Below, piece by piece: positions 1 to 14,507 of a DNA stretch of 64,000 nucleotides. Under the pieces are notes generated by a model. That model did not search any database, was not told the origin of the DNA, and was given only the letters and a program-made list of their open reading frames with translations. Source of the stretch: Echinicola strongylocentroti (GTDB lineage Bacteria > Bacteroidota > Bacteroidia > Cytophagales > Cyclobacteriaceae). How positions within the stretch are numbered: position 1 is the first letter of the stretch; each line of letters begins with the position of its first letter. The position numbers and the translations under genes are program-made. The stretch covers positions 1,339,001 through 1,403,000 of the forward strand of contig NZ_CP030041.1 of the NCBI RefSeq assembly GCF_003260975.1. The letters run 5' to 3'.

Positions 1-7
1 ATACTGT

Positions 8-160
8 GGGTAATCGAGTAGCCCGACCTGAGCCAAGTAGCTCAGGTTAAGGCTCTCACAGCTCTGAGCTTGTCGAAGTACCACTCCCGAAAGCTTTCGG
101 GATACGGGTCTTACCGATAGTCATCGGTACAGGCTGTATACGGCGGTTCACTGGATTGTA
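8..160 (-). mobile_element. Group II intron 3'-end remnant (domain V/VI-like), invaded by small repeats
   Basis: Read on the minus strand, the block contains TGAACCGCCGTATAC, a familiar 5' strand of a group II intron domain V, and ends in GGGCTACTCGATTACCC, which matches the CTACTCGAT intron 3' ends seen at 6190 and 7680. The domain V stem is interrupted by unrelated palindromic bits, including CCCGAAAGCTTTCGGG and the REP-like CTTCGACAAGCTCAG. It is therefore a decayed mosaic and not an active intron. No reverse transcriptase reading frame survives. It belongs to a different intron class from the three remnants at 6.2, 7.7 and 8.6 kb. Confidence 0.5.
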
Positions 161-518
161 GGTTGCGATTTGAGATAGTAGGAAAGCATGGATTCGTATC
201 CCTTTCTTCTCAGGCGTGACAAAGTGATAGTCGTGATCAGAATTGGGCTTTGAGCCACTGCCCACCCCCCTTTTCTGGTACAGCTCCAAGCATAGGCATG
301 GTCTTGGTCTACCCCCAATCTGATGAGGTTTTTGCGTTTTCGCTCAAACCCGCCCTCTATACTGGCCCAAAAGTGAGTAAATGTAAAAAAGGCCTGTGTT
401 TAACCGAAAAGTTAGTGCGTGAAAATTCGCTATTATTCTTATACGAGACCGTTGTGTGCCATATAAAGCCAAGCAGACTATACGCAAAAGGATATAGAAC
501 AACCCTACCCTACCTTAC
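161..518. other. Non-coding mosaic spacer upstream of hipBST
   Basis: No convincing gene. Positions about 198-265 (AAAGTGATAGTCGTGATCAG and following) are a degenerate copy of a sequence also found near 8785-8845 and 10165-10205, so this is a dispersed repeat fragment. Positions 445-460 read GAGACCGTTGTGTGCC, the right core of the cassette-boundary site that recurs at 4956, 6564, 8045 and 9021. This marks the left edge of the hipBST cassette. A 95-codon open frame here has no recognisable protein features and overlaps the repeats. Confidence 0.5.
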
Positions 519-619
519 TATATTTAACTGCATATAATATAACCTTAACACTTTTTATTATATCTAATTACATATAATTTATGTATATTTGTTTGATATT
601 ATATTTAAATACATATAAT
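519..619 (+). promoter_or_regulatory. Three 20-bp direct repeats, candidate HipB operators, with a promoter
   Basis: Three copies of a 20-bp unit with consensus TATATYTAAHTRCATATAAT lie at 519-538, 559-578 and 600-619, spaced 40 and 41 bp. The third copy runs into the hipB start codon (618-620). A perfect Bacteroidota -7 box, TATATTTG, lies at 584-591 between copies two and three, so transcription should start inside or just before copy three. HTH antitoxins of the HipB type normally repress their own operon by binding repeats across the promoter; that these are HipB sites is inference. Confidence 0.6.
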
Positions 620-827
620 GAAACAATTATCAGAGTTTGTAAAAAAACGAAGAAAGGAAGTAAATCTCACGCAGGAAGAATTTGCTGAACGTACTGGAGT
701 TGCACTAACTGTAATACGTAAAATCGAACAAGGCAAAACGAATCTGAATATGGATAAAGTGAATTTAGTTCTTAATATGTTTGGGCATGAACTAGCACCT
801 GTCAAAAGTAAAGACCTAGATAAATGA
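618..827 (+). CDS. hipB: HipB-like antitoxin (XRE HTH)
   Basis: Small 69-residue Xre-family helix-turn-helix protein. Residues about 5-58 make the whole HTH domain, with a LTQEEFAERTGVALTVIRKIEQGK core typical of HipB. The stop codon overlaps the next start as ATGA, so translation is coupled to the HipS-like gene. Expected role: DNA-binding antitoxin that represses the operon and holds the kinase toxin in a complex. The start codon lies inside the third upstream direct repeat, which leaves almost no 5' leader and no Shine-Dalgarno sequence, as is common in Bacteroidota. Confidence 0.85.
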   Translation: MKQLSEFVKKRRKEVNLTQEEFAERTGVALTVIRKIEQGKTNLNMDKVNLVLNMFGHELAPVKSKDLDK

Positions 828-1159
828 GACAAGGTAAAGTGTTTTATAAAGACTGTTTAGCCGGCATCGTTACTGAAACGAATGAAGGTGAGTATGTATT
901 TCATTACGATGACAAATACGTAAAAGATCATCCAAATGACTTCATCACATTTACAATGCCTGTTAGAACAAATCCATATACTGAAAAGCGACTTTTCCCA
1001 TTTTTTGAAGGATTGATTCCAGAGGGTTGGTTGCTTGATATAGCTTCAGAAAACTGGAAAATCAATAAAAATGATCGTATGGGTTTACTACTTGCTTGTT
1101 GTCAAAATTGCATTGGTGCAGTGAGTGTGGAACCAATAGTAGAAGAAGATGAAAAATAG
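824..1159 (+). CDS. hipS: HipS-like protein (separate HipA N-terminal subdomain)
   Basis: A 111-residue protein matching the HipA N-terminal subdomain 1 (Couple_hipA type), for example YTEKRLFPFFEGLIPEGWLL. In classical HipBA systems this piece is fused to the kinase. Here it is a separate gene between hipB and the kinase gene, the tripartite HipB-HipS-HipT layout in which the small HipS protein acts as the antitoxin. It overlaps hipB by 4 bp and the next gene by 11 bp, so the three genes are tightly coupled. Assignment of antitoxin activity to this protein rests on known HipBST systems. Confidence 0.8.
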   Translation: MRQGKVFYKDCLAGIVTETNEGEYVFHYDDKYVKDHPNDFITFTMPVRTNPYTEKRLFPFFEGLIPEGWLLDIASENWKINKNDRMGLLLACCQNCIGAVSVEPIVEEDEK

Positions 1160-2093
1160 ATGTTTATATTGTTACAAACCTGTAGAAGGTAAAAATGACT
1201 TTCACGAGAAATGTTCGATGGAATTCTTTGGAACACCAACTCCTCCAGAAATTGAATATTCCCTTGATCAAATGGATGAGCTCGCAAAAAAGATGGTTGA
1301 GAGAAGTATTGCTGTTCCTGGCGTTCAGGCAAAACTATCAATGTCATTAGTTAAAAAAACCAAAGATAATCCTGAAACAAGACTAACGGTAGTAGGTGCA
1401 TTAGGAGGTCATTATATTTTCAAACCACCTTCTGACAGGTTTCCAGAAATGCCTGAAAACGAACACCTAACCATGCGAATAGCAGAATCCTTTGGAATCC
1501 AAGTAGTGTCATCATCATTGTTTAGATTATTGTCAGGTGAACTGTCCTATATCACAAAACGAGTTGACCGAACACAAACTGGATCAAAGATTCACATGAT
1601 CGATATGTTTCAAATCACGGAAGCATTTGATAAATACAGAAGTTCTATGGAAAAAGTTGGAAAAGCATTAGGTAGCTTTTCAAGTAACACTTTACTAGAC
1701 AAAACTTATTATTTTGACCTAGCCGTATTTTCCTTTTTAACTGGAAATAATGATATGCATTTGAAGAACTTCTCAATGATCGAAGGCCCATCTGGCTGGG
1801 TGTTGTCTCCTGCTTACGACTTGTTAAATGTTGCAATAATATTCCCAGAAGATTCGGAAGAACTTGCACTGACATTAGTTGGGAAGAAAAAAAAGTTGAG
1901 AAGAGAGCACTTTGAACAATTGGGAAAAAGTTTAGGGTTGACTCCTAAACAGATCAAAGGAACATTCAATAGGATGATGAAAAATAAATCAAAGGCAGTT
2001 GATTGGATCGATCGATCATTCTTATCAGAAAATATGAAAATAGCATATAAAGATTCACTTGAAGAAAAATACAATCAATTAGGACTAGAATAA
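1149..2093 (+). CDS. hipT: HipT-like serine/threonine kinase toxin (HipA C-terminal domain)
   Basis: A 314-residue HipA-family kinase without the N-terminal subdomain. A short zinc-finger-like Cys5/Cys8/His19/Cys22 cluster opens the protein. The conserved segment around residues 53-62 (SIAVPGVQAK) corresponds to the HipA Gly-rich serine loop. The catalytic motif GNNDMHLKN (Asp about 202) and the metal-binding SPAYDLLN (Asp about 224) are intact, so the kinase should be active. HipA/HipT kinases phosphorylate aminoacyl-tRNA synthetases and arrest growth; the target here is not known. The downstream hairpin is interrupted by an IS21-family element. Confidence 0.85.
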   Translation: MKNRCLYCYKPVEGKNDFHEKCSMEFFGTPTPPEIEYSLDQMDELAKKMVERSIAVPGVQAKLSMSLVKKTKDNPETRLTVVGALGGHYIFKPPSDRFPEMPENEHLTMRIAESFGIQVVSSSLFRLLSGELSYITKRVDRTQTGSKIHMIDMFQITEAFDKYRSSMEKVGKALGSFSSNTLLDKTYYFDLAVFSFLTGNNDMHLKNFSMIEGPSGWVLSPAYDLLNVAIIFPEDSEELALTLVGKKKKLRREHFEQLGKSLGLTPKQIKGTFNRMMKNKSKAVDWIDRSFLSENMKIAYKDSLEEKYNQLGLE

Positions 2094-2098
2094 TAAAG

Positions 2099-2134
2099 AC
2101 ACACACTGTATAAACTGCATTAAAACGCAGTTTA
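2099..2134 (+). repeat. Left part of the cassette-boundary hairpin after hipBST, split by the IS
   Basis: ACACAC at 2101-2106 is followed by the arm GTATAAACTGC (2108-2118). The partner arm GCAGTTTATAC starts at 2127 and, once the IS and one copy of its GTTTA duplication are removed, finishes at 4788-4790. This gives a perfect 11-bp stem with an 8-nt loop, followed by CTAAACGTTGGCAAC at 4790-4804. The order ACACAC, stem-loop, CGTTGGCA is the same as at the other cassette boundaries (6446, 7927, 8964). It could also act as the hipBST transcription terminator. Confidence 0.6.
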
Positions 2135-2312
2135 TGGATATTCCGGAGCAAGTTGACCCCTTGGATCCAGGCAATAATTCAAGTACCGAAGTGGCTTTAG
2201 GTGCCGGAACCGCCTGCCATTCCGGCGGATGCTGACCCCTGAAGAATAATATTGAGCTGATTCCGGAGCAAGCTGACCCCTTTGGATCCTGGATTCCGGA
2301 GCAAGTTGCCCC
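2135..2312 (+). repeat. Multiple terminal transposase-binding repeats of the IS left end
   Basis: The unit ATTCCGGAGCAAGTTGACCCC is repeated near 2139, in degenerate form near 2219, near 2261 and near 2292, alternating with GGATCC-type spacers. Inverted relatives occur at the right end (GAGGGGTCAATATC near 4735 and CAGGGGTCAACATCGACC near 4755). Several repeated binding sites at each end are a known trait of IS21 elements. Confidence 0.7.
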
Positions 2313-2372
2313 CTCTATGGAGTTGTTTTGGTTTTTTAGCGGACATTTTAAAAAACCGCTAAGTATAGTCCG

Positions 2373-3950
2373 ATGGCAGGAAAACCAAAACCGATGAGTC
2401 AGATCAAACAGATGATTATTTTACGGCAGCAGGGCAACGGTATCAAAACCATTGCCCGTATGCTGGACATGAGCAAGAACACGGTAAAAAGCTATCTTTT
2501 CAAGCTTGACAAGCTGCTGGAAAACAACAGGAAGACAGGGCTTACAACCAAAAAGCTGCTGTCCATGGAAGACCCCGAAGTTGAGAAGCTGTTCCTTTCA
2601 GGGGATCCGTCCTATAAAGACCCCCGTTACGAGCACTTTATAGCCAACCTCCCTTATTATCAAAAAGAACTCAAGCGTAAAGGGGTGACCAAAACCCTTC
2701 TATGGGAGGAATACAGGGAATCTTACCCCGAAGGGTATGGCCGGAGCCAGTTTTGTTATCACCTTGGCCAGCAGGAGGTGGCCAGGGCAAAGCCTTCCAT
2801 GGTGCTTGACCATAAACCGGCAGAGAAGCTGTATATAGACTTTGCGGGCAAGCCCATCTGCTACATAGACAGGGAGACCGGGGAGGAGATCAGGTGCCAA
2901 CTGTTCGTGGCCTGCCTGCCCTATTCGGACTATGCCTTTGCCATGGCTGTGCCCTCCCAGACCATCCCCGACTTCCTGCACGTCCTGGGCTGTTGTATGG
3001 AGCAGCTGGGAGGGGTGCCACAGCTGCTCGTCCCTGACAACCTAAAAGCGGCCGTAAACAAGGCCGACAAATATGAGCCAGGTATCAACCGGGCCCTGGA
3101 GGACTTTGCCAACCATTACGGCACGGCCGTAGTGCCTGCCAGGGCAAGGAAACCGCAGGACAAGGCATTGGTGGAAAACCAGGTAAAGGTGCTCTATTCC
3201 CGGGTATATGCCAAGCTCAGGAACGTCCAATTCTTCGACATACACAGCCTGAACCGGGCCATTGCCGAAAAGGTGAAGGCCCATAACCAGACCCGTATGC
3301 AGCAAAAGCCTTACTGCAGGGAGGAAAGGTTCCTGGCCGATGAGAAGCACTTATTGGGAAAGCTTCCCGGGGAGCGCTTCGAGCTGAGGCATTATGCCGA
3401 ACTGACGGTAGCCAAGAACAACCACGTCTACCTGTCCCGGGACAAGCACTATTACAGCGTGCCATATTCCCTGATAGGCCAGAAGGTAAAGGTGGTCTAC
3501 ACCCGCAGCATGCTCTATGTGTTCCATAAAGGGGAACGGGTGGCCATACACGGCAGGGGCTTCCAGCAAGGGCCTTATTCCACACTCAAAGAACACCTGT
3601 GTTCCCAACACCAACACTACAGGGACAGAAGTCCGGCGTATTACCGCGACAAAGCTGCCCAATACTCCAATACCTTCGCCAAATACATTGCCCTGATCTT
3701 TAAGCAGGACAGGTACCCTGAGCAACTCTACAGGACCTGTGACGGCTTACTTGCCCTGGCCAGGAAGGTGGATGAACAGCGGCTGGACAAGGCCTGCAAT
3801 ATCGCCATGGAGTACAATCAATACAGCTATGGCTTTATCAAGAACATGCTGGAAAACAATATGACAGAAGCCACAACGGAAGCCTCCGGCAAGGAACTTC
3901 CCAAACACGGCAACGTCAGGGGAAGAACATATTACAACGAACAACGATAA
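2373..3950 (+). CDS. istA: IS21-family transposase IstA
   Basis: A 525-residue DDE transposase. The N-terminus holds an HTH (GIKTIARMLDMSKNTVKSY). The catalytic core shows the first Asp in KLYIDFAGKP (near residue 155), the second in LLVPDNLKAAV and the Glu in KALVENQV, the D-D-E pattern of rve-type integrase domains. Length is usual for IstA. It is followed after 18 bp by istB. IstA cuts and joins the element ends with IstB as ATP-dependent helper. Confidence 0.93.
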   Translation: MAGKPKPMSQIKQMIILRQQGNGIKTIARMLDMSKNTVKSYLFKLDKLLENNRKTGLTTKKLLSMEDPEVEKLFLSGDPSYKDPRYEHFIANLPYYQKELKRKGVTKTLLWEEYRESYPEGYGRSQFCYHLGQQEVARAKPSMVLDHKPAEKLYIDFAGKPICYIDRETGEEIRCQLFVACLPYSDYAFAMAVPSQTIPDFLHVLGCCMEQLGGVPQLLVPDNLKAAVNKADKYEPGINRALEDFANHYGTAVVPARARKPQDKALVENQVKVLYSRVYAKLRNVQFFDIHSLNRAIAEKVKAHNQTRMQQKPYCREERFLADEKHLLGKLPGERFELRHYAELTVAKNNHVYLSRDKHYYSVPYSLIGQKVKVVYTRSMLYVFHKGERVAIHGRGFQQGPYSTLKEHLCSQHQHYRDRSPAYYRDKAAQYSNTFAKYIALIFKQDRYPEQLYRTCDGLLALARKVDEQRLDKACNIAMEYNQYSYGFIKNMLENNMTEATTEASGKELPKHGNVRGRTYYNEQR

Positions 3951-3968
3951 CTTAAACTTTAAACAACT

Positions 3969-4691
3969 ATGCCCAACCCGATCGAAACACAACTTATCAA
4001 ACTCAGGCTCCATGGCATGCGCCAGACCTGGGCAACATTACAGGAGACCCGTAAAAACCAAAGCCTCTCCCTTACCGAAGGCCTTGAGCTTATGCTGCAG
4101 GCAGAAGAACAGGAACGGGACAACAGGAGATTCAAAAGACTGGAATCCAATGCGGGCTTCCGTTACAGGGCTTCCCTGGAAGAACTTTCCCTGGACAGGA
4201 CCAGGGGCCTGGATGACATGCTCCTGACAACACTGGCGACCGGGGAATATATGGAACATGGTGATGCGGTACTTATCACGGGAGCCACCGGCTGCGGAAA
4301 AAGTTACCTGGCCTCGGCCCTCGGCCATCAGGCCTGTGTGCACGGCAAAAAGGTCGCCTACTTCAATACCCAGAAGCTTATGCTCAAAATCAAGATGGTA
4401 AGGTTGGACGGTACCGTGCTCAAGTTCTTCGATAAAATGGCCAGAACAGACCTGCTTATCCTGGATGACTTCGGGCTCACACACCTGGACAAACAACAAC
4501 AAATGGACTTTATGGAACTTATCGAAGACAGACATGGTAAAAAATCCACTGTTATTGTAAGCCAGCTCCCTGTCTCAAGCTGGTATGATGTAATAGGTGA
4601 ACCGACCATAGCGGACGCCATCCTTGACCGGTTGGTGCACGCCTCCTACAGAATCGTGTTAAAAGGGGAAAGTCTCAGAAAAAAAATGTAA
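3969..4691 (+). CDS. istB: IS21-family helper ATPase IstB
   Basis: A 240-residue AAA+ ATPase. Walker A is GATGCGKSYLASALG, Walker B is LLILDDFGL, and the C-terminus carries DAILDRLVHASYRI, a typical IstB sensor region. IstB remodels target DNA and activates IstA. Located 18 bp after istA and intact. Confidence 0.93.
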   Translation: MPNPIETQLIKLRLHGMRQTWATLQETRKNQSLSLTEGLELMLQAEEQERDNRRFKRLESNAGFRYRASLEELSLDRTRGLDDMLLTTLATGEYMEHGDAVLITGATGCGKSYLASALGHQACVHGKKVAYFNTQKLMLKIKMVRLDGTVLKFFDKMARTDLLILDDFGLTHLDKQQQMDFMELIEDRHGKKSTVIVSQLPVSSWYDVIGEPTIADAILDRLVHASYRIVLKGESLRKKM

Positions 4692-4782
4692 AATTGTCAG
4701 TCTTCTGACTATACTACCAAAACAGCCTCTGCAGAGGGGTCAATATCACCGGAACAGGGGTCAACATCGACCGGAATATCCA

Positions 4783-4992
4783 GTTTATACTAAACGTTGG
4801 CAACAAGCTGTGAAAAACGAGTAAACTAATAAGCAAAGGGTATAAAAATCGAAACCCGATAGTTTGATAAAATCAGGGACTATCGGGAATAAGATGATAC
4901 AAATGTATTAACGACAAGGCAGGTACGGCGGTTCACAGGGGCAGTACTCATAGCCGAGACCGTTGTGGTACATTTTAGAAAGACAGAGCCAA
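4783..4992 (+). other. Spacer with cassette cores, hairpin and group II intron scrap
   Basis: The right core TAAACGTTGGCA of the hipBST boundary lies at 4791-4802. A 9-bp inverted repeat CCCGATAGT/ACTATCGGG follows (4855-4863 and 4879-4887, 15-nt loop). TACGGCGGTTCACAGG near 4924 is the complement of a domain V 5' strand, a second-class group II intron scrap like that at 140-155. GAGACCGTTGTG at 4956-4967 is the right core in front of the next gene. Confidence 0.45.
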
Positions 4993-6177
4993 ATGACAAA
5001 CATTCACTTTAGAAAGGAAAAAATATCAATTAAGAATATTGGCCGGCAGAGATTTTGGATTGGAGTTGTAGCAGGACTGATTTCAGCGATTTCAATCTCA
5101 TTGTTTTTCAATCATTCAAGAGAAGTTCTTCGTCTATTCACAGGTATGTCAACGGACTTGCTGATTTTAAAAGAAAATGAACTTCTATTTTTCAATTATT
5201 TCTTCTCATTACTTTCATCAGTATTGGGACTTTCAATCACAATATGGCTTTGGTTGCAGAACAAAAAACACAATCGGAAAAAAGACAGAATTTATAAACA
5301 ACTTTCAGTAACAAATACCATTTTGATTTTCTGGTTCATTTTGATGATAATATCTCGCTTTGGTTCAATCCTACCAATAGTTTTATTTGGAACTCCAGGT
5401 TATGACAACCATTTAAATCTCTATGAAGAATATTGGATACTTTTCGTATTGATACCAATCGTTGTATTTACGCAAAGTTGGTTTGCCGTCAGGCTTGTTT
5501 ACCAAGCAGGAAGATGGATTTTTCTATCGTTCCTTTTCTGCATACTGACAGCATTTACACTTCAATTAACAACTACAGTTAATCAAGAAAAGCTCAATTC
5601 AGCATACCACCAAAGATATGAAAGAGACTACAACTATATCGACCAAGAAATAAGGATTGCTAAAGAAAAATATGGCATTGACTATAATGAACAGACTGTA
5701 GAAATTTTGAAAAAACGGTTTACAGAAAGTTCCGTCAAACAGATTGAAAGTATTAAAAATGTATTTTCTGCTAACAAACCAGTTACATTGGACACTATAA
5801 TTCTTCAAAAGATAATAATCAGGAACTACAAAGAAGGTGGTTGGTATTATTACAGAAGAAACTCAATTGAAAATTGGCGATATGCATTACCTATTGACAT
5901 TTTAAAACAACTAAGTTTTTTTGAGCAGAACTCTAAGGAAACAAAGGAACTTTTTGAGGTTCTAAAAGAAATGATTGACTTAGTGAATACACCAGAAATA
6001 CATTGGGAAGCCTATCAAAATTTCACAGAAACAGAAAGACGAAGAAGTTTAGGAGCAAGATATAATATACCTGCCCCATTGATTGAACAGTTAAAAGAAG
6101 TTCGAACACGACTATTAAAAGAAGAGCGATATTCAAACTCTTCTAAGGATTTAAAATCCGTAAAGGACAGAGAATGA
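4993..6177 (+). CDS. Polytopic membrane protein of unknown function
   Basis: About 394 residues counted from the ATG at 4993; an in-frame TTG at 4963 would start inside the repeated core sequence and is less likely. Five hydrophobic stretches stand out: FWIGVVAGLISAISISLFF, a segment around FFSLLSSVLGLSITIWLWL, one around TILIFWFILMIISRF, WILFVLIPIVVFTQSWF and IFLSFLFCILTAFTL. They are followed by a charged soluble C-terminal half (about 200 residues) with helical character. I do not recognise the family. It is a single-gene cassette, AT-rich, between two boundary sites. Confidence 0.65.
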   Translation: MTNIHFRKEKISIKNIGRQRFWIGVVAGLISAISISLFFNHSREVLRLFTGMSTDLLILKENELLFFNYFFSLLSSVLGLSITIWLWLQNKKHNRKKDRIYKQLSVTNTILIFWFILMIISRFGSILPIVLFGTPGYDNHLNLYEEYWILFVLIPIVVFTQSWFAVRLVYQAGRWIFLSFLFCILTAFTLQLTTTVNQEKLNSAYHQRYERDYNYIDQEIRIAKEKYGIDYNEQTVEILKKRFTESSVKQIESIKNVFSANKPVTLDTIILQKIIIRNYKEGGWYYYRRNSIENWRYALPIDILKQLSFFEQNSKETKELFEVLKEMIDLVNTPEIHWEAYQNFTETERRRSLGARYNIPAPLIEQLKEVRTRLLKEERYSNSSKDLKSVKDRE

Positions 6178-6188
6178 AAAAAAATAAC

Positions 6189-6580
6189 GTGCGCTAGTCG
6201 AGTAGGTAAAGGGGAATTTCACCACTAAACCTCCCACAGAATCGTACATGAACCTCTCGATTCATACGGCCCTTATTATGCAGTCGGTTAATCGTCCATA
6301 AGTTAGACCAATTGGCATCTCATCTCCCAGTGATCAAACAGGTTTGGATGGTGCTCTATACCGGCCAAAAACTCCCGCTTTGTCCTCATGGACTCTCGCC
6401 CATTAGAACGGTCAACTTTGTGACCTATATGCACCATTTAAGGCTCACACACGGCATATAGCTTATGGCAGGTGAACAGCTATCGGCAAGGTTTTCGTCT
6501 CGTAGCCAACTTTGGTTTCGGCGGACAGGAAAGTGCTTTGAAACCACCAAAAGCCATATGCAAACCGTTAGCGCACATCT
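6189..6580 (+). repeat. Cassette-boundary repeat C1 with minus-strand group II intron 3' remnant
   Basis: Starts with GTGCGCTA (6189-6196) and ends with the inverted match TAGCGCAC (6569-6576). Positions about 6197-6360, read on the minus strand, hold the end of an intron reverse transcriptase (a HWEM-type tail, then a stop), a 34-nt domain V with a CGAGAG loop, and the CTACTCGA 3' end. The GG(G)CC base of domain V departs from the AGC triad, so it is decayed. The rest has the left core CACACAC (6446-6452), hairpin arms 6454-6468 and 6547-6561 (13 of 15 paired), and the right core ACCGTTAGCG. Confidence 0.6.
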
Positions 6581-6593
6581 AAAAATGCCATTA

Positions 6594-6653
6594 TCGTTTA
6601 TTACGCTTGTTTCGTTTATTTCGTTTATATACCTTTGATTAATCAAAAAGGAG
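6594..6653 (+). promoter_or_regulatory. Promoter and repeated operator of the PIN toxin-antitoxin pair
   Basis: A textbook Bacteroidota promoter: TTG at 6607-6609, 20 bp, then TACCTTTG at 6630-6637. TCGTTTAT occurs three times (6594, 6612, 6621) across the -33 to -7 interval and may be the antitoxin operator. AGGAG at 6649-6653 is a Shine-Dalgarno sequence 4 bp before the start codon, unusual for this phylum. Confidence 0.6.
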
Positions 6654-6657
6654 AAAC

Positions 6658-7116
6658 ATGGAAACAATATTGAAAAGAACATCCGGAGACGATCAAAGAA
6701 TCGCTCTAGGATCAATGACAAGACTCAAAGAGGTTTCGAGTAAACTGCGTACTGTATCAACTGCCGGTGTTAAGATTAAAATTCAAGAAACTGGAGAGTT
6801 CATCACTATTCCTAAAAAGGCTCTTTCCTTGCTCATAACGATCTTATCAAATATGTCAGAGGGAAAGTCAATAACAATCATTCCCACAGATTCTGAGGTG
6901 AGTACACAACAAGCGGCAGATATGCTGAATGTATCTAGACCTCATTTGGTTAAATTGTTGGAGAACAATACCATTCCCTTTAAGAAAGTCGGTAGTCATC
7001 GAAGAATTTTGCTAAGAGATTTAGTCGCTTATGAGAAAAGTCTTCAAAGAACTCGAGAAGAAAAATTGAAATTTCTTTCGGAACAAGCTCAAGATCTGGA
7101 TCTTGGTTATGAATGA
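6658..7116 (+). CDS. Excisionase/MerR-type HTH antitoxin
   Basis: A 152-residue protein. The C-terminal half holds an excisionase-family HTH (STQQAADMLNVSRPHLVKLLENNTIPFKKVGSHRRI), the domain often found in antitoxins paired with PIN toxins. The N-terminal half is an uncharacterised dimerisation-like segment. The stop codon overlaps the next ATG as ATGA, so it is coupled to the PIN gene. Role as antitoxin and autorepressor is inferred from the partner. Confidence 0.8.
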   Translation: METILKRTSGDDQRIALGSMTRLKEVSSKLRTVSTAGVKIKIQETGEFITIPKKALSLLITILSNMSEGKSITIIPTDSEVSTQQAADMLNVSRPHLVKLLENNTIPFKKVGSHRRILLRDLVAYEKSLQRTREEKLKFLSEQAQDLDLGYE

Positions 7117-7682
7117 TTTACTCGTCAAATTTCATAGCTATTCTTGATGCTTGTGTACTCTACCCTGCACCTGTAAGAGACTTACTTCTCTCCTAGGCCG
7201 ACTATGGACTATATAAACCGAAATGGTCAGAAGAAATTCAGGATGAATGGTCTCGAAACTTACTACTAAATCGACCAGATTTAAACAAAGGGCAATTGCA
7301 ACTAACTATTGAGGCGATGAATGATACCTTTCCTGACTCCAATGTAGAGAAGTTCGACTCTCTGATTCCTAGCATCATTTTACCGGACCCAAACGACCGT
7401 CATGTTGTGGCAGCTGCAATTAGGTCAAAGGCGGACGTAATAGTGACATATAACCTAAAGGACTTTCCTAAATCTATTGAAAACGAATTCGATATTCAGA
7501 TACAGCATCCAGACGAATTCTTGTGTAATGTCTACGATCTGCATCCTGAAAAAGCGAAAGAAGCCTTTGCTAAAATGGTTAAAAGACTAAAGAACCCACC
7601 AAAATCACAATCTGAAGTTCTCGAGACTCTTTCAAAATCTGATCTGAAAAGAATAATTGAAAAATTAAAAGACGTGCGCTAA
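7113..7682 (+). pseudogene. PIN-domain RNase toxin interrupted by an in-frame TAG
   Basis: Reading from the ATG at 7113 gives FIAILDACVLYPAPVRDLLL, then a TAG at 7194-7196, then a frame that continues unbroken to 7682. The acidic PIN residues are present on both sides (ILDACVL before; SEEIQDEW and ILPDPNDRHVVAAAI after). Family members have a hydrophobic residue where the TAG sits, so one substitution such as TTG to TAG explains it. The full product would be 189 residues. An internal start at 7296 would lack the first catalytic Asp. Loss of the toxin under an intact antitoxin is a common decay route. Confidence 0.75.
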
Positions 7683-8060
7683 TCGAGTAGGTAAAGGGGG
7701 AATTTCACCCCTAAACCTCTCACAGAACCGTACTTGGACCTCTCGATACATATGGCTCTTATTATACTGCCGGTTAATCGTCCATAAGTTAGACCAATTG
7801 GTATCCCATCTCCCAGTGATCAAACAGGTTTGGATGGTTCTCAATACCGGCCAAAAACTCCCGCTTTGTCCTCATGGACTCTCGCCCATTAGAACGGTCA
7901 ATTTTGACCTATATTTACCAGTCAAGACACACACAATGGCTATGCGTTATCCGGCAAAAGTACTGAAATAAAAGCAATTACATTAAATAAACTAACTGCT
8001 AAACGGAAAGTGAAGGGCCTTGAAATCCCGCACTACGCACAGCCGGACCGTTGGCAATAA
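7674..8060 (+). repeat. Cassette-boundary repeat C2 with minus-strand group II intron 3' remnant
   Basis: GTGCGCTA at 7674-7681 overlaps the PIN stop codon. Minus-strand 7758-7725 is a complete 34-nt domain V beginning GAGCCATATG and ending GTACGGTTC, with the AGC catalytic triad intact. The tail of a reverse transcriptase (NLFDHWEMGYQLV, then stop) lies just upstream on the same strand. Then follow the left core ACACACAC (about 7927-7935), arms GGCTATGCGT (7938-7947) and ACGCACAGCC (8035-8044), and the right core GGACCGTTGGCA (8045-8056). Confidence 0.65.
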
Positions 8061-8109
8061 CTTGGAAATGATTCTTATTTGGTGCATATTTACATCAAAC
8101 GAATAAATT

Positions 8110-8349
8110 ATGGCTAGACAAAGTATATCATTCACAAAGCCAAACGATGAATGGCTGAAAACTCAAGTAGATAAAAAAGAGTATTCAAGTAAGAGTGAAC
8201 TCGTAAACGACTTAATTAGACAAGCTCGAAAACAACAAGTTGAAATTAACTGGATTCGCGCTAAATTGGAGAAAGCCGAAAACAGCGGATTTACAAGCGA
8301 AAGTGAAAATGAAATTTTAGCTCAATCAAAGTCTTTGCTTAATGGCTAA
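8110..8349 (+). CDS. parD: ParD-like ribbon-helix-helix antitoxin
   Basis: A 79-residue protein with an N-terminal ribbon-helix-helix (SISFTKPNDEWLKTQV, YSSKSELVNDLIR) and a disordered C-terminal toxin-binding tail. It overlaps the ParE-like gene by 8 bp. Expected to neutralise the toxin and repress the operon. It is the first gene of its cassette, starting about 55 bp after the right core of repeat C2. Confidence 0.88.
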   Translation: MARQSISFTKPNDEWLKTQVDKKEYSSKSELVNDLIRQARKQQVEINWIRAKLEKAENSGFTSESENEILAQSKSLLNG

Positions 8350-8629
8350 ATATAGATTGAGCAATGAAGCGAAAAATAACCTGATACGGATTCATCATTA
8401 CGGTGTGAAAAAATTTGGAATGACTCAAGCGGACGAATACTTTGCATCATTTTTTAAATATTTCGAAATTATTGCCCAAAGACCCTTCTCATTTGAATCG
8501 GTTGACTATATAAAAAACGACTACAGACGTTGTGTCTGTGGAGTTGATAGCATTTATTTTAAAGTAAATGAGGAGATTGTCGAAATAATGGCAATTCTCG
8601 GAAGACAAGACTTGAATGAAAAACTATAG
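8342..8629 (+). CDS. parE: ParE/RelE-superfamily toxin
   Basis: A 95-residue type II toxin with the ParE fold pattern: YRLSNEAKNNLIRIHHYGVKKFGMTQADEY at the start and the strand pair YRRCVCGVDSIYFKVN...VEIMAILGRQD at the end. ParE members inhibit DNA gyrase; related RelE members cut mRNA, so the target is not certain. The stop codon abuts boundary repeat C3. Confidence 0.88.
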   Translation: MAKYRLSNEAKNNLIRIHHYGVKKFGMTQADEYFASFFKYFEIIAQRPFSFESVDYIKNDYRRCVCGVDSIYFKVNEEIVEIMAILGRQDLNEKL

Positions 8630-9032
8630 TAGGTAAAGGGGGATTTCACCCCTAAACCTCTCACAGAATCGTACATGAACCTCTCGATTCATACGGCCCT
8701 TATTATGCAGTCGGTTAATCGTCCATAAGTTAGACCAATTGGTATCCCATCTCCCAGTGATCAAACAGGTTTGGATGGTACTCTTTTCTTCTTAAGCGTG
8801 ACAGGGTAATTGTCGTTCCGAGAATCGGGCTCTAGGCTACTGCCCATCCGTCTTTTCTGTTGCCCTCTCTCATACCCGCCCAAAGCTCCTGCTTTGTCCT
8901 CATGGGCTCTCTCCCATTCGCCCCTTGGGTCGGTCAACTTTTTGACCTATATGCACCATTCAAGGCACACACAATGGCTAAAACGGCAATATGGACTATG
9001 CCCCCATACTGCGTTTAGCCAGGACGTTGGCA
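8628..9032 (+). repeat. Cassette-boundary repeat C3 with minus-strand group II intron 3' remnant
   Basis: The intron-derived part (8628-8780) is nearly identical to C1, but lacks the GTGCGCTAATCG lead. It has a spacer (about 8780-8900) related to 198-265. The left core GGCACACACAA lies at 8964-8974. The hairpin arms GGCTAAAACGGCAATATGG (8976-8994) and CCCATACTGCGTTTAGCC (9003-9020) pair along nearly their whole length with two bulged bases on one arm. The right core is AGGACGTTGGCA (9021-9032). Bulged bases on one arm are a hallmark of integron attC hairpins. A short open frame over it is not a gene. Confidence 0.62.
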
Positions 9033-9045
9033 TTTACTAAAAAAA

Positions 9046-9076
9046 TTGTACAATATGTATAATTTCCGTATCTTTG
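9046..9076 (+). promoter_or_regulatory. Promoter of the GNAT-like/HTH pair
   Basis: TTG at 9046-9048, 20 bp spacer, then TATCTTTG at 9069-9076, a full match to the Bacteroidota TAnnTTTG box. The start codon at 9096 follows after 19 bp. The promoter lies directly after the right core of repeat C3, so it travels with the cassette. Confidence 0.65.
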
Positions 9077-9095
9077 ACTTATAACAAAGAGTTGA

Positions 9096-9602
9096 ATGAA
9101 TGTAAAAATCCTAGAAACGGCAACCAAATCCGATATTAAATCCCAAATTTATTTGGTAAAAAAAAATAAGTCGAAATTACCTTCGATAAATGAAGGATGG
9201 AGATTTAATTTTAGTAAACACTCCAAAAGGAAAGATTGCGAGACTTACATTTTAACGACTGACAAAACACCTGAAATAATTGAGGGATGCTTGATAATAG
9301 ATACTAAAAGTCCTCATCAAGTTTATATGGCTTTTGTTGAGGTTGCACCGCATAACAGAGGTGATAAAAAAAGATACGAAAGAGTTGCAGGTTGTTTAAT
9401 AGCTTTTGCTTGTAGACAAAGCTTCATTAATGACAAAGAAGGTTATCTCGCTTTTGATGTCCTAGAAGAAAAAAAAGAGAATGAAACAAAACTAATGACG
9501 TTATATAGTAAAAAGTATAATGCTGTTAGATTCGACACATCTACAACAATGATTATTCTACCTGAAGGTAGTGAAAAACTCATTAATGAATTTTTAAATT
9601 GA
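9096..9602 (+). CDS. GNAT-like protein, possible acetyltransferase toxin
   Basis: A 168-residue protein. The pattern FVEVAPHNRG...YERVAGCLIAFACRQSF followed by GYLAFDV and LYSKKYNAVRF...TMIILPEG resembles the acetyl-CoA-binding core of the GNAT fold (strand 4, helix 3, and the tail LYxK-x-NA). The pyrophosphate loop is poorly conserved, so activity is uncertain. It is coupled to a following HTH gene (TTGA overlap), which suggests a toxin-antitoxin pair with the toxin first. Call based on pattern only. Confidence 0.5.
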   Translation: MNVKILETATKSDIKSQIYLVKKNKSKLPSINEGWRFNFSKHSKRKDCETYILTTDKTPEIIEGCLIIDTKSPHQVYMAFVEVAPHNRGDKKRYERVAGCLIAFACRQSFINDKEGYLAFDVLEEKKENETKLMTLYSKKYNAVRFDTSTTMIILPEGSEKLINEFLN

Positions 9603-9607
9603 AGGTT

Positions 9608-10072
9608 ATGAAAAATATAGAAATCTTACCTAAAGACATTTGGAACAATGACAAACTCAATAAAATAGATGAGTTTATTAAAGAGCATTCTGATAATCAG
9701 TCTAAAGAAAGAAAAATCAGGAATAAACTTCTTTCCATTCAATATAAACTAGAAGACTATATTGAAAGAGATGATATTAAAGAAAATGAGACTCTTGATA
9801 TTTTGGACTTTGTAAAATTGTACTTAAAGGTCTTTGACATTACCAAAAAAGATTTAGCCAAATATTTTGGAATGCGAGACAGTAACCTTCATAAATATTT
9901 AACCGGTCAAAGAAAACTGAACCCTGAAGTTGTGCTTAAAATCAGTTCCTTTTCTCGAACAAAACCTGAATATTGGTATAGAGTCCAAGTTAAAAACGAA
10001 ATAGTAAAATTAAAAAAAGAGGACCGAAAAGAATATGACAAATATGACTATGAAAAGTTATTGTCTATATAA
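9608..10072 (+). CDS. HTH protein, HigA-like candidate antitoxin
   Basis: About 154 residues from the ATG at 9608; a TTG at 9599 overlapping the upstream stop is an alternative start. The C-terminal half has an Xre-type HTH (ITKKDLAKYFGMRDSNLHKYLTGQRKLNPEVVLKIS) followed by TKPEYWYRVQVKNE, the HigA-like extension. The N-terminal half is charged and helical. Toxin-then-antitoxin order resembles higBA systems, here with a GNAT-like partner. Confidence 0.65.
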   Translation: MKNIEILPKDIWNNDKLNKIDEFIKEHSDNQSKERKIRNKLLSIQYKLEDYIERDDIKENETLDILDFVKLYLKVFDITKKDLAKYFGMRDSNLHKYLTGQRKLNPEVVLKISSFSRTKPEYWYRVQVKNEIVKLKKEDRKEYDKYDYEKLLSI

Positions 10073-10347
10073 AAAAACAAAATTCCAACAACTAAGTATT
10101 CGTGTAGCCGGAACGGCCAAACATGATTGCAGAATTGAACGAGTGGTGCTGGGAAAGGACATTTATGGAGAAAAGTGATAGTAGTGATCAGAATCGGACT
10201 CTGGGCTTGTCGAAACCTAAAAGTCCTGAGTAAATTGATTTCACCCCCCTATTGTGCCCTATTTCCCTAATGTGGTTATCAAATAAGGTAACTACTTTAT
10301 GTTACTCTTTTCCGAGGCCTTAGAATTCGGGATTAACCCTAGAACTT
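10073..10347. other. Junction between accessory DNA and the polysaccharide locus
   Basis: No gene. Near 10165-10205 it repeats the AAAGTGATAGTAGTGATCAG element seen at 198-265, next to GGGCTTGTCGAAACC, a REP-like scrap. No complete cassette core follows the last cassette gene, so the array end appears truncated here. Confidence 0.4.
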
Positions 10348-13300
10348 TTAACTCCCCTCACTACCTGCATTATTTTTCTTTTGGTTAAGGTAATCTGTGG
10401 GAGACATTCCAAACTGCTTTTTAAAGCATTTGGAAAAGTAAGATGCCGTATTAAACCCAGTTTGGTACATGATTTCCTTAACTGAAATATCACTCTTTTC
10501 CATAAGTTGTACCGCCCGCTTCAACCGGACCGTTCTAATAAATTCACTTGCGGACTGATCAGTAAGGGACTTCATTTTTAGATGGAGCTTAGACCTGCTC
10601 ATGCCCATTTCTTTCACAAACTCCTCCACGGTAAACTCTGGATTGTCCATATTGGCCTCCACCACCTCCATCGCTTGGGTCAAAAAGGAGTTGTCTGTGG
10701 AGTTTACGGTGATCTCAGAAGGCTGCAATAAAACCTCATTGGTAAATCGCTGGCGCATTGCCTCCCTGCTTTTCAGCAGGTTATTGACCCTAAGCAATAG
10801 CTTCTCCAGGTCAAAGGGTTTCGTAAGGTACATGTCTGCACCATGTTTGAGCCCCTCCAGTTCTCCCTCTTGTGTATTTTTTGCCGTTAACATTAATACG
10901 GGGATGTGACTGGTCTTCGTACTGGCCTTAAGGCGCTCGCACAACTCCACTCCATCCATGACAGGCATCATCACATCCGTAATGATCAGGTCAGGGTCTT
11001 CTTTTTCTGTAAGTGCCAGTCCTTGCTCTCCGTTGATGGCTTCTATTACCTCATACTGTCGATGAAACGCCTCACGGATAAGTCGTCTAATTTCTGCATT
11101 ATCATCCACCACAAGCACCTTCAACAGCTTCTGGTGCTTGGCTTTGGATTCTGGTACTGGGCTCTTTTCGGTAAAATCCTTCTCCAGATCCACGTCTATC
11201 CATCGCTCAGGCAAGAGATCAAAGCCCGTCTCCATATTCATCACCACATTATCGGCATCCTTGTACGCTTGTTTATGGAGGGGCAGGATAACTGTAAACG
11301 TTGTCCCCTTGCCTTCTTTGCTCTCAAAGGCTATCTTCCCTTGATGGATCTCCACCAGGCTTTTCGTATAGGACAGTCCAATGCCTGTACCCACATGCCT
11401 CCCCGATTTTTCATTGGCCTGAAAAAAACGTTCAAACACTTTTCCTATCCGATCACTGGGAATCCCCACTCCCGTATCCACGACTTGGATGCTTACTGCC
11501 TCTTCACCATCCCACTCTTTTGCGGTAAGTGGCGTTACCGACAAGGTCACTTTCCCGCCTTTTGGGGTGAATTTAAAGGCATTGGACAAAAGATTGTAGA
11601 GGATCTTTTCTACCTTATCTGTATCCAACAGACCGTGGATTTCGCCTTGCAGACGAACGTCAAACTCCACTTCCTTGCTCAAGCCAACAAGGTGGAATGG
11701 CTCTGCTAATTCTTGGACAAAATCACTCACATTTTGCTCAGAAAGGAATAATTTCATCTTATTCTGGTCAATCTTCCGAAAATCCATGAGCTGGTTGACC
11801 AACTTCAACAGCAACCGTGCATTTTTTTGCATCAGGGTGTACATCCTATCCCTTTCGGATTCGCTGAATTGCATACCAGACTTCATCAGCTGCTCCAAAG
11901 GCCCCAAAATCAACGTAAGGGGTGTCCTGAATTCATGGCTGATATTGGTAAAAAAACGAAGCTTCATTTGATGCAGTTCCTCGGTTTTTTCGCGGGTAAG
12001 GTGCTCCACCTCCAGCTGGTGCTTTTTGGTGATTCCTATTAGGGTATATTTTCTTACGCCGATCAGCACCAGCACTGCCACTGCCACATACAGCAAATAC
12101 GCCCACCAAGTAAGCCAAAACGGAGGAGCAATGACCACTTTGATAGCCGCTACCTCTTGTTCATTCCACAATCCATCATTATTGGCCGCCTGGACTTTCA
12201 TGGTGTACTCTCCATGACCAATGTTGGTATAGGAAGCAAATCTCCTCTCTGCAGAAGTCTCGGTCCACTTCGTGTCAAAACCTTCTAACTTATACCGGTA
12301 TTGATTTTCACTTGGCGCAGCATAGTGCAACGCCGCAAATTCGAAAGTGAAGTTGTTTTCCCAATATTTCAGATCGATCTGCTCACTTTCATAAATGGCC
12401 TGTGAAAGGACTACTCTACCATTAAATTCCTGCCCCAGCGGTACTGATTTATTGAAAATTTGAAAATCGGTGATGGCTACTTTGGGCTTATAAGGATTAT
12501 CTTTTATCTCGTGGGGATAAAAAGCATTGAACCCATTCACTCCACCAAAGAGCATTTCTCCATCATGTCTTTTATAGGCAGCCAGTTCACTGAACTCATT
12601 ACTCTGCAGCCCATCAGTCACATCGTAGGTTTTAAAACTCTCCTCAAAAGGATCAAACTTATTGAGCCCCTTATTGGTAGATATCCACAAAAAACCATCG
12701 TTGTCTTCCAAGATACCCTTGACGACGTTATTGGATAGGCCCTCTGTCTCTTTATACGACTTGAAGGACAACTCCCCGTTTCCATCCATCATGACCTTGT
12801 TTAACCCTCCTCCGAAAGTCCCAATGTACACTTGCCCCTCTAGGGTCTCGTACATATCCAAGATATAATCATAACTCAGGGATGTCGTATCACCGGGGAT
12901 ATTCCTATAGACTTCTATGTCAGGATGGGGCTGGTATAACTGATGTTGTCTGATCAGGTTCAGGCCTTTGCCCGTTCCGACCCACAAGTTGCCCAGCTTG
13001 TCCTGCATAAGACTTCGGATCATTTGGATGGACAGTCCATCACTTTCGGTAAACTGGTCTACTTGATAATCTCCACCCGGCCGTGGTGTCAGCCGATAAA
13101 GTCCCTGATGATAGGTGCCGACCCAGAGCACCCCGTTCTGATCACTGTGAAGATCAAAAACCGCCCCGTAAATCCCGTGCTTGGTCCCAAAATCCCAGTC
13201 CACTGTGGCTTTTCCATTTTGGTCAAAAATTACCCGTGACAAAGCTTGGTCCTCCGAACCTAGCCAAATGATCCGATTGTCGGACAGGACGGTCTCTTCA

Positions 13301-14507
13301 ATACTGAAGATGCTTTTAATATCATTGTCATAATGGGTAAATGACTGGTATTTTTCACCCTTATTATTGTCCCAATCCACGTTTAGCCCGCCACCCTGCG
13401 TGCCTATCCACACAGCGTTCTTAGAATCCTCAAAAATACTACGAATCTTATCATAACTGATACTGCCCTCCTTGATGTTTTTCCGGTAAACTCTAAAGGC
13501 CTTTTTCTCTAAATTGACTTTATTGACTCCTCCACCGTTGGTCCCTATCCACACGATGCCGGAATTGCCACGATAAATACACCTTACATTGTTCTTATTT
13601 AAACTCGCCGGATCCTCTACATGGACGGTAAATTCCTCCTTCTCCAGTAAAAATGGTGAGGTACTTTCCTCTTTCATCAATTGGATCCCTTGGCTGGATC
13701 CTCCCCAGACACTGCCTTTCCCATCCGAAGTCATTGACAGGAAATTTCCATGTACTGTAGGGTAAAATGTTCCGTCTACTAAAATATAAACGGTATTACC
13801 GGCATTGGCGAGCAACTGTCCTTTTGAGTTTTCTCCAAGAGAGCGGATATTCTGGTTAGAAAATCCAGGATGTTCCTTCACCGAATACTCCTTGCCATTG
13901 CGCACCATGTAAAACAAACCACTTGTAGTGCCAAACCAAATCTTGCCATCCCGCCCTCGTAGATGGCCTGAATTGGGTTTTTCGATGCTGTACCTACTAA
14001 GAACTTCTCAAAAACCGGAGATTTAAGAGGTGTGTTCCTGATGAGGTTGAGCCCATTTTGTGTCGCTATCCACACTTCTTCTTTGCTGGACACCACGACT
14101 TGGGTGATGAAGTTATTGGACAGCCCTTCTTTATTTCCAGGAGTATGGTAAAACCGTGTGAATTTTTCGGTACTGATATCCAGCAAGTTTAACCCTGCCC
14201 CTGTCGTCCCCACCCACAAATACCCCCTGGGATCTTCTTCAAGGGCAAATATCAGATTACTACTGATCGTGGAGCTATCGTTGGGATTGGATTGGAAAAC
14301 TTGAAAATTGTACCCATCGTATTTGTTCAGCCCATCATGGGTGCCAAACCACATAAACCCATTTTTATCTTGGGCAATGGCGTTGACATCGTTTTGGGAC
14401 AGGCCTTGCTCTGTGGTCAAGTGCTCGAAGGTAATATTATGGGTCTGTCCATATCCATTGCCCCAAATCAATATCAGGAATAAGAAAGGTATATTAAGCA
14501 GTTTCAT
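10348..14507 (-). pseudogene. Hybrid two-component system regulator (HTCS), frameshifted
   Basis: A one-protein sensor-regulator of about 1,390 residues when joined. The N-terminal 209-codon frame starts at 14507 with a signal peptide and the first propeller repeats (ITFEHLTTEQGLSQNDV, MWFGTHDGLNKYDG). A one-base indel near 13950-13958 (a G-rich run) moves the rest to another frame. The long part then shows more propeller repeats, a Y_Y_Y domain, a TM (about 601-620), HisKA (ISHEFRT, His about 660), HATPase (DTGVGIP, GTGIGL), a receiver (ITDVMMPVMDG) and an AraC HTH at the C-terminus. It should sense an oligosaccharide and switch on the locus. Restoring one base gives RDGKIWFGTT at the join. 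Confidence 0.85.

Follow-up and report, generated by a model that had tools for sequence, protein, structure and literature searches.

Does a row of gene modules separated by hairpins, with no integrase gene beside it, belong to an integron, and if not, what moves its parts? The question is raised by a 64,000-nucleotide stretch of the Echinicola strongylocentroti chromosome (hereafter the window; G000:C1:1339001-1403000 of a 6.25-Mb genome, G000, in one contig), whose first 10 kb carry, all on one strand, HipBA, a 404-aa protein, a helix-turn-helix (HTH)/PIN-like pair, ParDE, and a HigA-like gene with a further open reading frame (ORF). A sequence-only reading had taken these modules for an integron-like array; the cassette organisation, the attC-like sites, the toxin-antitoxin (TA) cargo and the single orientation stand, but membership of the classical integron family is unsupported because the recombinase of such arrays is not IntI. 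To judge from its sequence, the window very probably holds the distal stretch of an array of integron-like cassettes; this array would be an orphan copy of a platform type that is widespread in Bacteroidota and appears to be run by a recombinase without a part held to be essential in integrons.

In an integron, the R'' box and the bases that follow G|TT are parts of one cassette, whose end should therefore be complementary to its own start. The arrays considered here have exactly this property. Their sites were located with R1, a covariance model of 43 sites and 22 pairs (no training site lies in the window; one, L011:17956-18098, comes from the same array just upstream of it), at six loci of six other genomes, none of which is in the training set. 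Of 71 R1 matches, 63 entered the test, those of L168 and L170 and one opposite-strand duplicate being left out, and these gave 51 testable cassettes. Over 7 bases the mean match of a cassette end was 6.16 with its own start, 2.82 with the next start and 2.66 with the others; at least 6 of the 7 bases matched the own start in 45 of the 51 cassettes and the next start in a single one, and the own start scored above the next in 46 and below it in 4 (Wilcoxon p 2.6e-9). A version of this test on sites from a simple hairpin scanner was noisy (5.25 own vs 3.31 next at L050, n = 16; 4.13 vs 2.38 at G006, n = 8) because sites had been missed, which is why it was redone on R1-located sites. The longest ORF has the orientation of its cassette in 29 of 32 cases. 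By their own-end complementarity and their single orientation, the cassettes are units.

The sites are inverted repeats with complementary R''/R' and L''/L' boxes, as seen in a set of 70 mostly scanner-located sites (66 above score 15, less seven that looked spurious, plus 11 from the own genome and from G006), in the 22 pairs of R1 and in its 71 matches in 201 kb of other loci. The inner stems of the 70 sites comprise 957 paired and 163 other positions, and their mismatches are strongly directional: A on the left stands opposite C on the right 108 times, the reverse arrangement only 12 times, and the bias recurs (84 vs 7) in 54 sites of six other loci. On the bottom strand these mismatches become G.T wobbles, in many cases as a pair five positions apart, and it is the bottom strand that folds more stably in 58 of the 70 sites. 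The best stem was bulge-free in 32 of the 54 sites and no extrahelical base common to the sites was noticed, both scanner and model favouring ungapped stems. As for the cassette starts, 49 of 51 read GTTR and all 51 have A at position 11; the classical R' consensus GTTRRRY is found in just four.

The point of exchange can be read from the platforms at which such arrays begin. An attI-like hairpin occurs three times in the own genome, at 748142, 1336207 and 5909851, and at 748 kb it directly follows the stop codon of a tyrosine recombinase gene (360 aa) and is itself followed by an array of its own. A member of the same genus, G006, has a recombinase 98% identical to that of the own genome, and the two platforms share 95% identity over 1285 bp up to G|TT, beyond which they carry other cassettes. 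In five pairs among the four platforms (the three own copies and G006), identity is 0.85-0.95 over the 20 nt up to the G and 0.20-0.50 over the 30 nt after GTT. Sixteen co-oriented recombinase loci from other genomes were also read for an attI, and in 15 a core lies 47-110 bp behind the recombinase match. Four further pairs (G160a/b, G126/G199, G155/G174 and G092/G188) are 95-100% identical over the 20 nt before the core and 27-50% over the 30 nt after it; a fifth, G064/G074, with 60% before and 47% after, is uninformative. An attI of the kind that a classical integron has at its integrase gene is seen, with different cassettes after it, in the four platforms and in four of the five further pairs, and related platforms diverge at the GTT core, where the sequence-only reading had looked for breakpoints. 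The tyrosine recombinase that it sought near the array does stand at the head of arrays of this kind; the one with the window's attI lies elsewhere on the chromosome, 588 kb from the window's array. A cassette of about 400 bp without a convincing gene is present in five copies in the 748-kb array (L012 1280-2816 and about 7376-7800, minus strand) and in two in G006, including the attI-proximal place.

The recombinase of these platforms is related to IntI without being one. Its best NCBIfam match is TIGR02249, the integron integrase, at 211 bits against a cut-off of 265, and none of the ten TIGR02249 matches in the own genome exceeds that cut-off. IntI4 (2a3v) aligns only at 10-179 and 247-319, on either side of a region that the recombinase is without. 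In a 49-row tree the seven IntI above the TIGR02249 cut-off form a 100/100 clade that excludes the 26 Bacteroidota rows, and the spacing from Arg-I to HxLRH is 91-96 residues in 23 of these 26 (three not measurable) vs 132-134 in six of the seven IntI (one not measurable). The IntI with an additional I2 domain that marks the classical integron is therefore not what these platforms encode. Searches by sequence and by structure place archaeal Xer and XerA next to IntI4, and the predicted structure of a relative (mean pLDDT 83) best matches 2a3v, then XerA. Many of these recombinases have an extra N-terminal region, the first 70 or so residues forming a separate small domain (strand-strand-helix-strand-strand, e.g. 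L070:2774-3013) with a motif F..K..WS...W that a regular expression finds in 18 of 38. There is only a hint that this predicted domain is HARP-like: Pfam HARP matches one of four proteins at E 0.029, and the top Foldseek match, the HARP of SMARCAL1, is not significant (E 0.64). One such plasmid gene is already annotated as 'site-specific tyrosine recombinase/integron integrase'. Acinetobacter plasmids (H9-H25) encode a tyrosine recombinase about 49% identical to the present one over residues 125-360, called TnpF in a similar record, H11.

The absent region is worth a remark. According to one account, cassette capture requires the I2 helix, no other protein has it, and its gain was the step by which integrons arose (PMC7790495). 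Smyshlyaev et al. call the insert 'not fully conserved' in their integron-like subgroup, yet essential (PMC8138268), and sequences related to ours may therefore have been counted as integron-like before.

We drew 148 genomes across Bacteroidota, the own genome included, and scored at most 21 candidates per genome with R1 (E<=0.001). Sites are present in 86 of the 148 genomes and in 57 of 83 genera; the own genome has R1 matches at 24 places (E<=1). The recombinase was detected in 53 of the genomes, and sites occur in 49 of these 53 vs 37 of the 95 without it (p 3.4e-11). Proximity was assessed for the 65 recombinase matches listed and the best 150 sites within a radius of 25 kb: 27 of these matches have a listed site nearby, 23 of them co-oriented with the site downstream, four divergent and none otherwise. 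In G096, G112, G104 and G060 the recombinase points away from the array, which is the classical integron orientation. A survey on either side of the recombinase, covering 66 of 80 loci, gave for the 42 Bacteroidota loci 25 sites in 187 kb downstream, 8 in 329 kb upstream and 2 in shuffled downstream sequence; for the 24 loci of other phyla the figures are 4 in 174 kb downstream, 7 in 187 kb upstream and 0 in shuffled sequence. The cassette cargo that was read consists of TA pairs, a type IIG restriction enzyme, defence-like proteins and genes without a Pfam match. Among ten proteins scanned per library, the cassettes of L051, L171 and L172 yielded an MmeI-type IIG restriction enzyme, Orf5/SspE-like, Schlafen-like and PF05139-family proteins, an HNH endonuclease and a guanylate cyclase.

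How might such a platform work? A complete one comprises a gene for a tyrosine recombinase that is related to Xer and IntI and is without the IntI-specific insert, an attI-like site ending in G|TT, and a tandem array of cassettes. Each cassette begins with GTTR, typically ends in the reverse complement of its own start and precedes a site in the form of an inverted repeat of about 60-120 nt. The site would fold on its bottom strand so that a double-stranded core is rebuilt from the R''-R' ends, and the recombinase would exchange strands at G|TT, the partner of this hairpin being attI or another site; cassettes would enter at attI and leave the array by excision. The sequences themselves show the architecture, the point of exchange, the complementarity of cassette ends to their own starts, the polarity, the strand bias in folding and the association with the recombinase, from which we infer that this recombinase is the enzyme, that its substrate is single-stranded and that the cassettes circularise. 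The most far-reaching account, to which we give slightly better than an even chance, is that this is a second natural system of hairpin-cassette capture, Bacteroidota-wide and without either an I2 helix or conserved extrahelical bases; its polarity would come from the fixed wobble positions, perhaps helped by an N-terminal HARP-like DNA-junction domain, and it would either represent a stage of integron evolution before I2 or have arisen independently.

The window's own array can now be laid out.

1..10373, plus strand: window part of a 13.3-kb module (about G000:1336050-1349373; from flank blastn and attI copies)
5..13, plus strand: R'' box (left core) TGTGGGTAA of a TetR/short-chain dehydrogenase cassette (cargo by Pfam) starting 1.9 kb upstream of the window
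361..462, plus strand: attC-like site 0, right half, ending GACC-GTT (R1 match on the minus strand, E 0.0047)
451..2105, plus strand: HipBA cassette, start GTT at 451 (Pfam HTH_3, Couple_hipA, HipA_C)
618-827, 824-1159 and 1149-2093, plus strand: its hipB-like, hipA N-part and hipA C-part ORFs
2096..2134, plus strand: attC-like site A, left part, with the right part at 4783-4799 past the IS21 element (direct sequence reading)
2135..4782, plus strand: IS21-type insertion splitting site A, GTTTA on both flanks (Pfam rve, Mu-transpos_C_2, IstB_IS21)
2373-3950 and 3969-4691, plus strand: its istA-like and istB-like ORFs
4962..6196, plus strand: cassette of the 404-aa protein (ORF 4963-6177; sub-cut-off Pfam matches only), R'' box GTGCGCTA at 6189-6196
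6197..6451, minus strand: group II intron relic in the R'' region (RF00029 at 6197-6274, 43.2 bits)
6440..6578, plus strand: attC-like site B (R1 match on the minus strand, E 7.2e-13)
6567..7682, plus strand: TA-like cassette with HTH protein (6658-7116) and PIN-like ORF (7296-7682), R'' box GTGCGCTAA at 7674-7682
7682..7937, minus strand: group II intron relic (RF00029 at 7682-7760, 45.7 bits)
7922..8061, plus strand: attC-like site C (R1 match on the minus strand, E 3.5e-12)
8050..8629, plus strand: ParDE-like cassette, ORFs 8110-8349 and 8342-8629 (ParE_toxin above cut-off, ParD_antitoxin just below)
8630..8973, minus strand: group II intron relic (RF00029 at 8538-8701, 38.7 bits)
8964..9030, plus strand: short attC-like site D, a hairpin of about 55 nt (sequence reading)
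9026..10089, plus strand: last cassette, with an unknown 168-aa ORF (9096-9602) and a HigA-like ORF (9599-10072), R'' box AAATTCCAAC at 10080-10089

R1 detects sites 0, B and C; even at E<=1 it misses site A, which is split by the IS21 element, as well as the short site D and the core at 4960. A first, loose AAC/GTT hairpin scanner returned 11 matches in the 104 kb around the window vs 8.8 in shuffles, no clear excess, so that proof could not have come from the window by itself; at a stricter score there is an excess at several other loci (10 vs 0.3 at L050) and none at others. A single degenerate pattern drawn from site D recovered site D only. The motifs named in the sequence-only reading are real, the CACACA runs lying at 2099-2101, 6446-6447, 7927-7930 and 8966-8968 and the right cores at 449, 4794, 4960, 8048 and 9024, with GTTAGCG at 6567; isolated copies of CACACA and of CGTT are also found in other parts of the window, and the ordered set with a hairpin is confined to its first 9 kb.

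The array is larger than was described, its true start being not at 445 but at the attI at G000:1336207-1336250, 2.75 kb upstream of the window. Behind this attI hairpin, GGATATAGAGGCAAT..GTTGCTT..TATA..AAGTG|TT, comes a complete cassette whose start GTTAGGCAAC and end GTTGCCTAAC are 10/10 complementary, and then an intact inverted-repeat site of 122 nt from AAC to GTT. A clean own end was found for four cassette starts of this array, the segment from 4796 being left out of the test. The box TGTGGGTAA, into which intron-like sequence breaks after TAA, agrees with the start of its cassette, GTTACCCACA, at 9/10 positions; the box GTGCGCTAA of the HTH/PIN cassette (HTH_17 above cut-off, PIN_3 just below, NF046100 below) matches its own start at 9/9; and the box AAATTCCAAC of the last cassette (HigA-like ORF with an HTH_3 match and TIGR02607 at 34.6 bits vs a cut-off of 47.7) does so at 9/10. 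The box GTGCGCTA matches the next cassette start at 8/8 and its own at 3/8, and the cassette of the 404-aa protein is thus taken to be rearranged. The PIN-like gene (7113-7682) has an in-frame stop near 7195 and appears broken.

Three of the boundaries hold copies of one 255-344-bp element, 79-96% alike in pieces: the relic at 6197-6451 matches that at 7672-7935 at 90%, and the relic at 8630-8973 matches the stretch 6201-6357 of the first at 96% over 157 bp. Rfam covers only domains V/VI, on the minus strand, and the third relic falls below the RF00029 gathering score of 40. All three are in reverse orientation and too short for a reverse transcriptase, and two stand directly behind R'' boxes; group IIC-attC introns are known to insert into the R'' of attC in this orientation (PMC7923331). 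Judging from their position and their GTGTG start on the bottom strand, the CACACA runs at 6446, 7927 and 8964 are presumably the 5' ends of intron relics, so that CACACA, which the sequence-only reading had proposed as a general left core, loses that role in three of four cases. The fourth, at 2099, may be the real left box of the HipBA cassette, although it fits its start at 6/9 at best. Upstream of two relics the real left boxes are still present (GTGCGCTA at 6189, GTGCGCTAA at 7674), none remaining at the third; like TGTGGGTAA at 5, they are on the far side of intron-like sequence. A longer group II intron, with RF01999 and RF00029 matches and a reverse transcriptase/maturase above the TIGR04416 cut-off, lies at about 4302-6140 (minus strand) of L012 (G000:739000-758000), at the right core of a site of the 748-kb array and in the same orientation as the cassettes.

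The window's array has an attI, but no recombinase gene was found beside it. The 13.3-kb module is missing in G006 and G005, the two of ten other genus members that have the downstream flank, and there the flanks lie 91 and 322 bp apart (blastn). Since the missing part starts approximately where a leader common to the orphan and the third platform begins (82.7% over 191 bp), the module was gained or lost as a unit. The best description of the window's copy is an ageing orphan array that has decayed by way of group II introns in its R'' boxes, an IS21 insertion and lost cassette ends. The IS21-type element has a 2649-bp copy, 99.96% identical, at about 731-734 kb, beyond the 748-kb array. Past the array, a hybrid sensor/regulator-like gene at 10348-14507 (minus strand) is read in two overlapping frames, 10348-13917 and 13878-14507, with a possible frameshift.

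Could the window simply hold the remnant of a classical integron that has lost its IntI and kept ordinary attC sites? A closely similar TA-rich cluster of attC sites with no integrase nearby (CALIN), likewise with truncated group II introns, is described in Halorhodospira halochloris (PMC7923331), and no recombinase adjoins the window's array; however, none of the ten TIGR02249 matches of the genome reaches the cut-off, the same attI stands directly behind a recombinase that is not IntI, the sites track that recombinase throughout the phylum, and GTTRRRY fits few of the cassette starts. We regard such a remnant as improbable; the array would be a CALIN by analogy alone, its sites not being classical attC. 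Hardly different, and if anything a shade less probable, is that host XerC/XerD or some other recombinase moves the cassettes and the adjacent IntI-like gene is a passenger. The hijacking of Xer by mobile elements is known (PMC7790495), and the genomes that hold sites without a recombinase match would suit this idea, but it leaves aside the position of the gene, the polarity, the attI 47-110 bp behind it and the co-occurrence of recombinase and sites across genomes, and the design of the sites, in which R and L boxes are combined with an asymmetric spacer, resembles attC and not a short dif-like site. Least probable of all, and indeed very improbable, is a defence/TA island shuffled by insertion sequences and homologous recombination, its boundaries being ordinary terminators that drew group II introns. 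Such introns can target terminators too (PMC7923331), and the relics in three boundaries, the IS21 element and the TA-rich cargo are all compatible with this; but it explains neither the near-identical attI with different neighbours broken at G|TT, nor the directional A.C mismatches, nor the constant polarity relative to the recombinase (27/27 of those with a listed site near, among the matches listed), and the complementarity of cassette ends to their own starts has largely refuted it already.

Capture of hairpin cassettes by the recombinase described here nevertheless has several observations to contend with, and these count against it. Sites occur in 37 of the 95 genomes without a recombinase match and are absent from 4 of the 53 with one, and 38 of the 65 recombinase matches listed have no listed site (best 150 only) within 25 kb. 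Of 30 non-Bacteroidota genomes with a related recombinase, 27 have no R1 match and three (0/15 and 3/15 in the two control sets) have one weak match each (E 4e-4 to 4e-6), so that the system may reach a few other lineages. Twelve of the 70 sites fold no better on the bottom strand, and the best stem has a bulge or gap in 22 of 54. The attI cores of the 16 co-oriented loci were chosen by eye, and one locus, G079, showed no clear core. In the 748-kb array the first own-end test came out reversed (2.86 own vs 3.86 next, seven cassettes) because the scanner had missed sites; a search by sequence alone found own ends for four of its eight starts, and for a fifth it found the end of an adjacent, nearly identical copy. 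In the window's array, finally, the own-end fit of HipBA is 6/9 at best, the 404-aa cassette fails, and no R'' box was recognised in the end region of the ParDE-like cassette.

Among the titles and abstract openings listed from the open-access literature on integrons, attC, CALIN, group IIC introns and cassettes, mostly with Bacteroidota or groups within it, none describes this system, a scope from which preprints and most subscription papers fall out. IntegronFinder 2.0 reports a single complete integron for Bacteroidetes, that of Salinibacter ruber M1; previously only In0 had been seen there (PMC9024848); a review counts Bacteroidota among the integron phyla (PMC8618304), and a 2008 survey names the Bacteroidetes/Chlorobi group (PMC2426708). 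If attI, attC-like hairpins and cassettes with their own ends do exist without I2, ideas of where gene cassettes are made would have to change, and the origin of single-strand recombination would become testable with living enzymes rather than with laboratory-evolved intermediates.

How, then, does the system compare with those already known? Like integrons, it has a platform of recombinase, attI and one-way cassette array with exchange at G|TT, inverted-repeat sites of the form R''/L''/L'/R' in which R'' pairs with the start of its own cassette and the bottom strand is favoured, and both TA and orphan cargo. Unlike them, its recombinase is without the IntI insert (spacing of 91-96 vs 132-134) and falls outside the IntI clade, its starts rarely fit GTTRRRY (4/51), its stems carry fixed A.C positions (G.T on the bottom strand), and the recombinase gene is usually co-oriented with the cassettes (23/27 among the matches listed). 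By length, the nearest recombinase architecture is that of Xer (XerA, XerD, XerH), from which many of the present enzymes differ by their extra N-terminal region. The sites on which Xer works are dif, short and double-stranded, and it is not known to have cassette arrays. The polarity of classical attC comes from extrahelical bases and the spacer, and the spacer here is A-rich on the R''-L'' side, as reported for the Vibrio cholerae repeats (VCR) of integrons (PMC2727003). Spirochaetota integrons resemble these platforms in the orientation of the integrase gene, their intI being reverse-oriented (PMC9668308), but their enzymes are IntI, unlike those described here. The CALIN of Halorhodospira halochloris shares with the window a TA-rich array without integrase and truncated introns (PMC7923331); its attC sites were found with integron tools, whereas those of the window are of the Bacteroidota kind.

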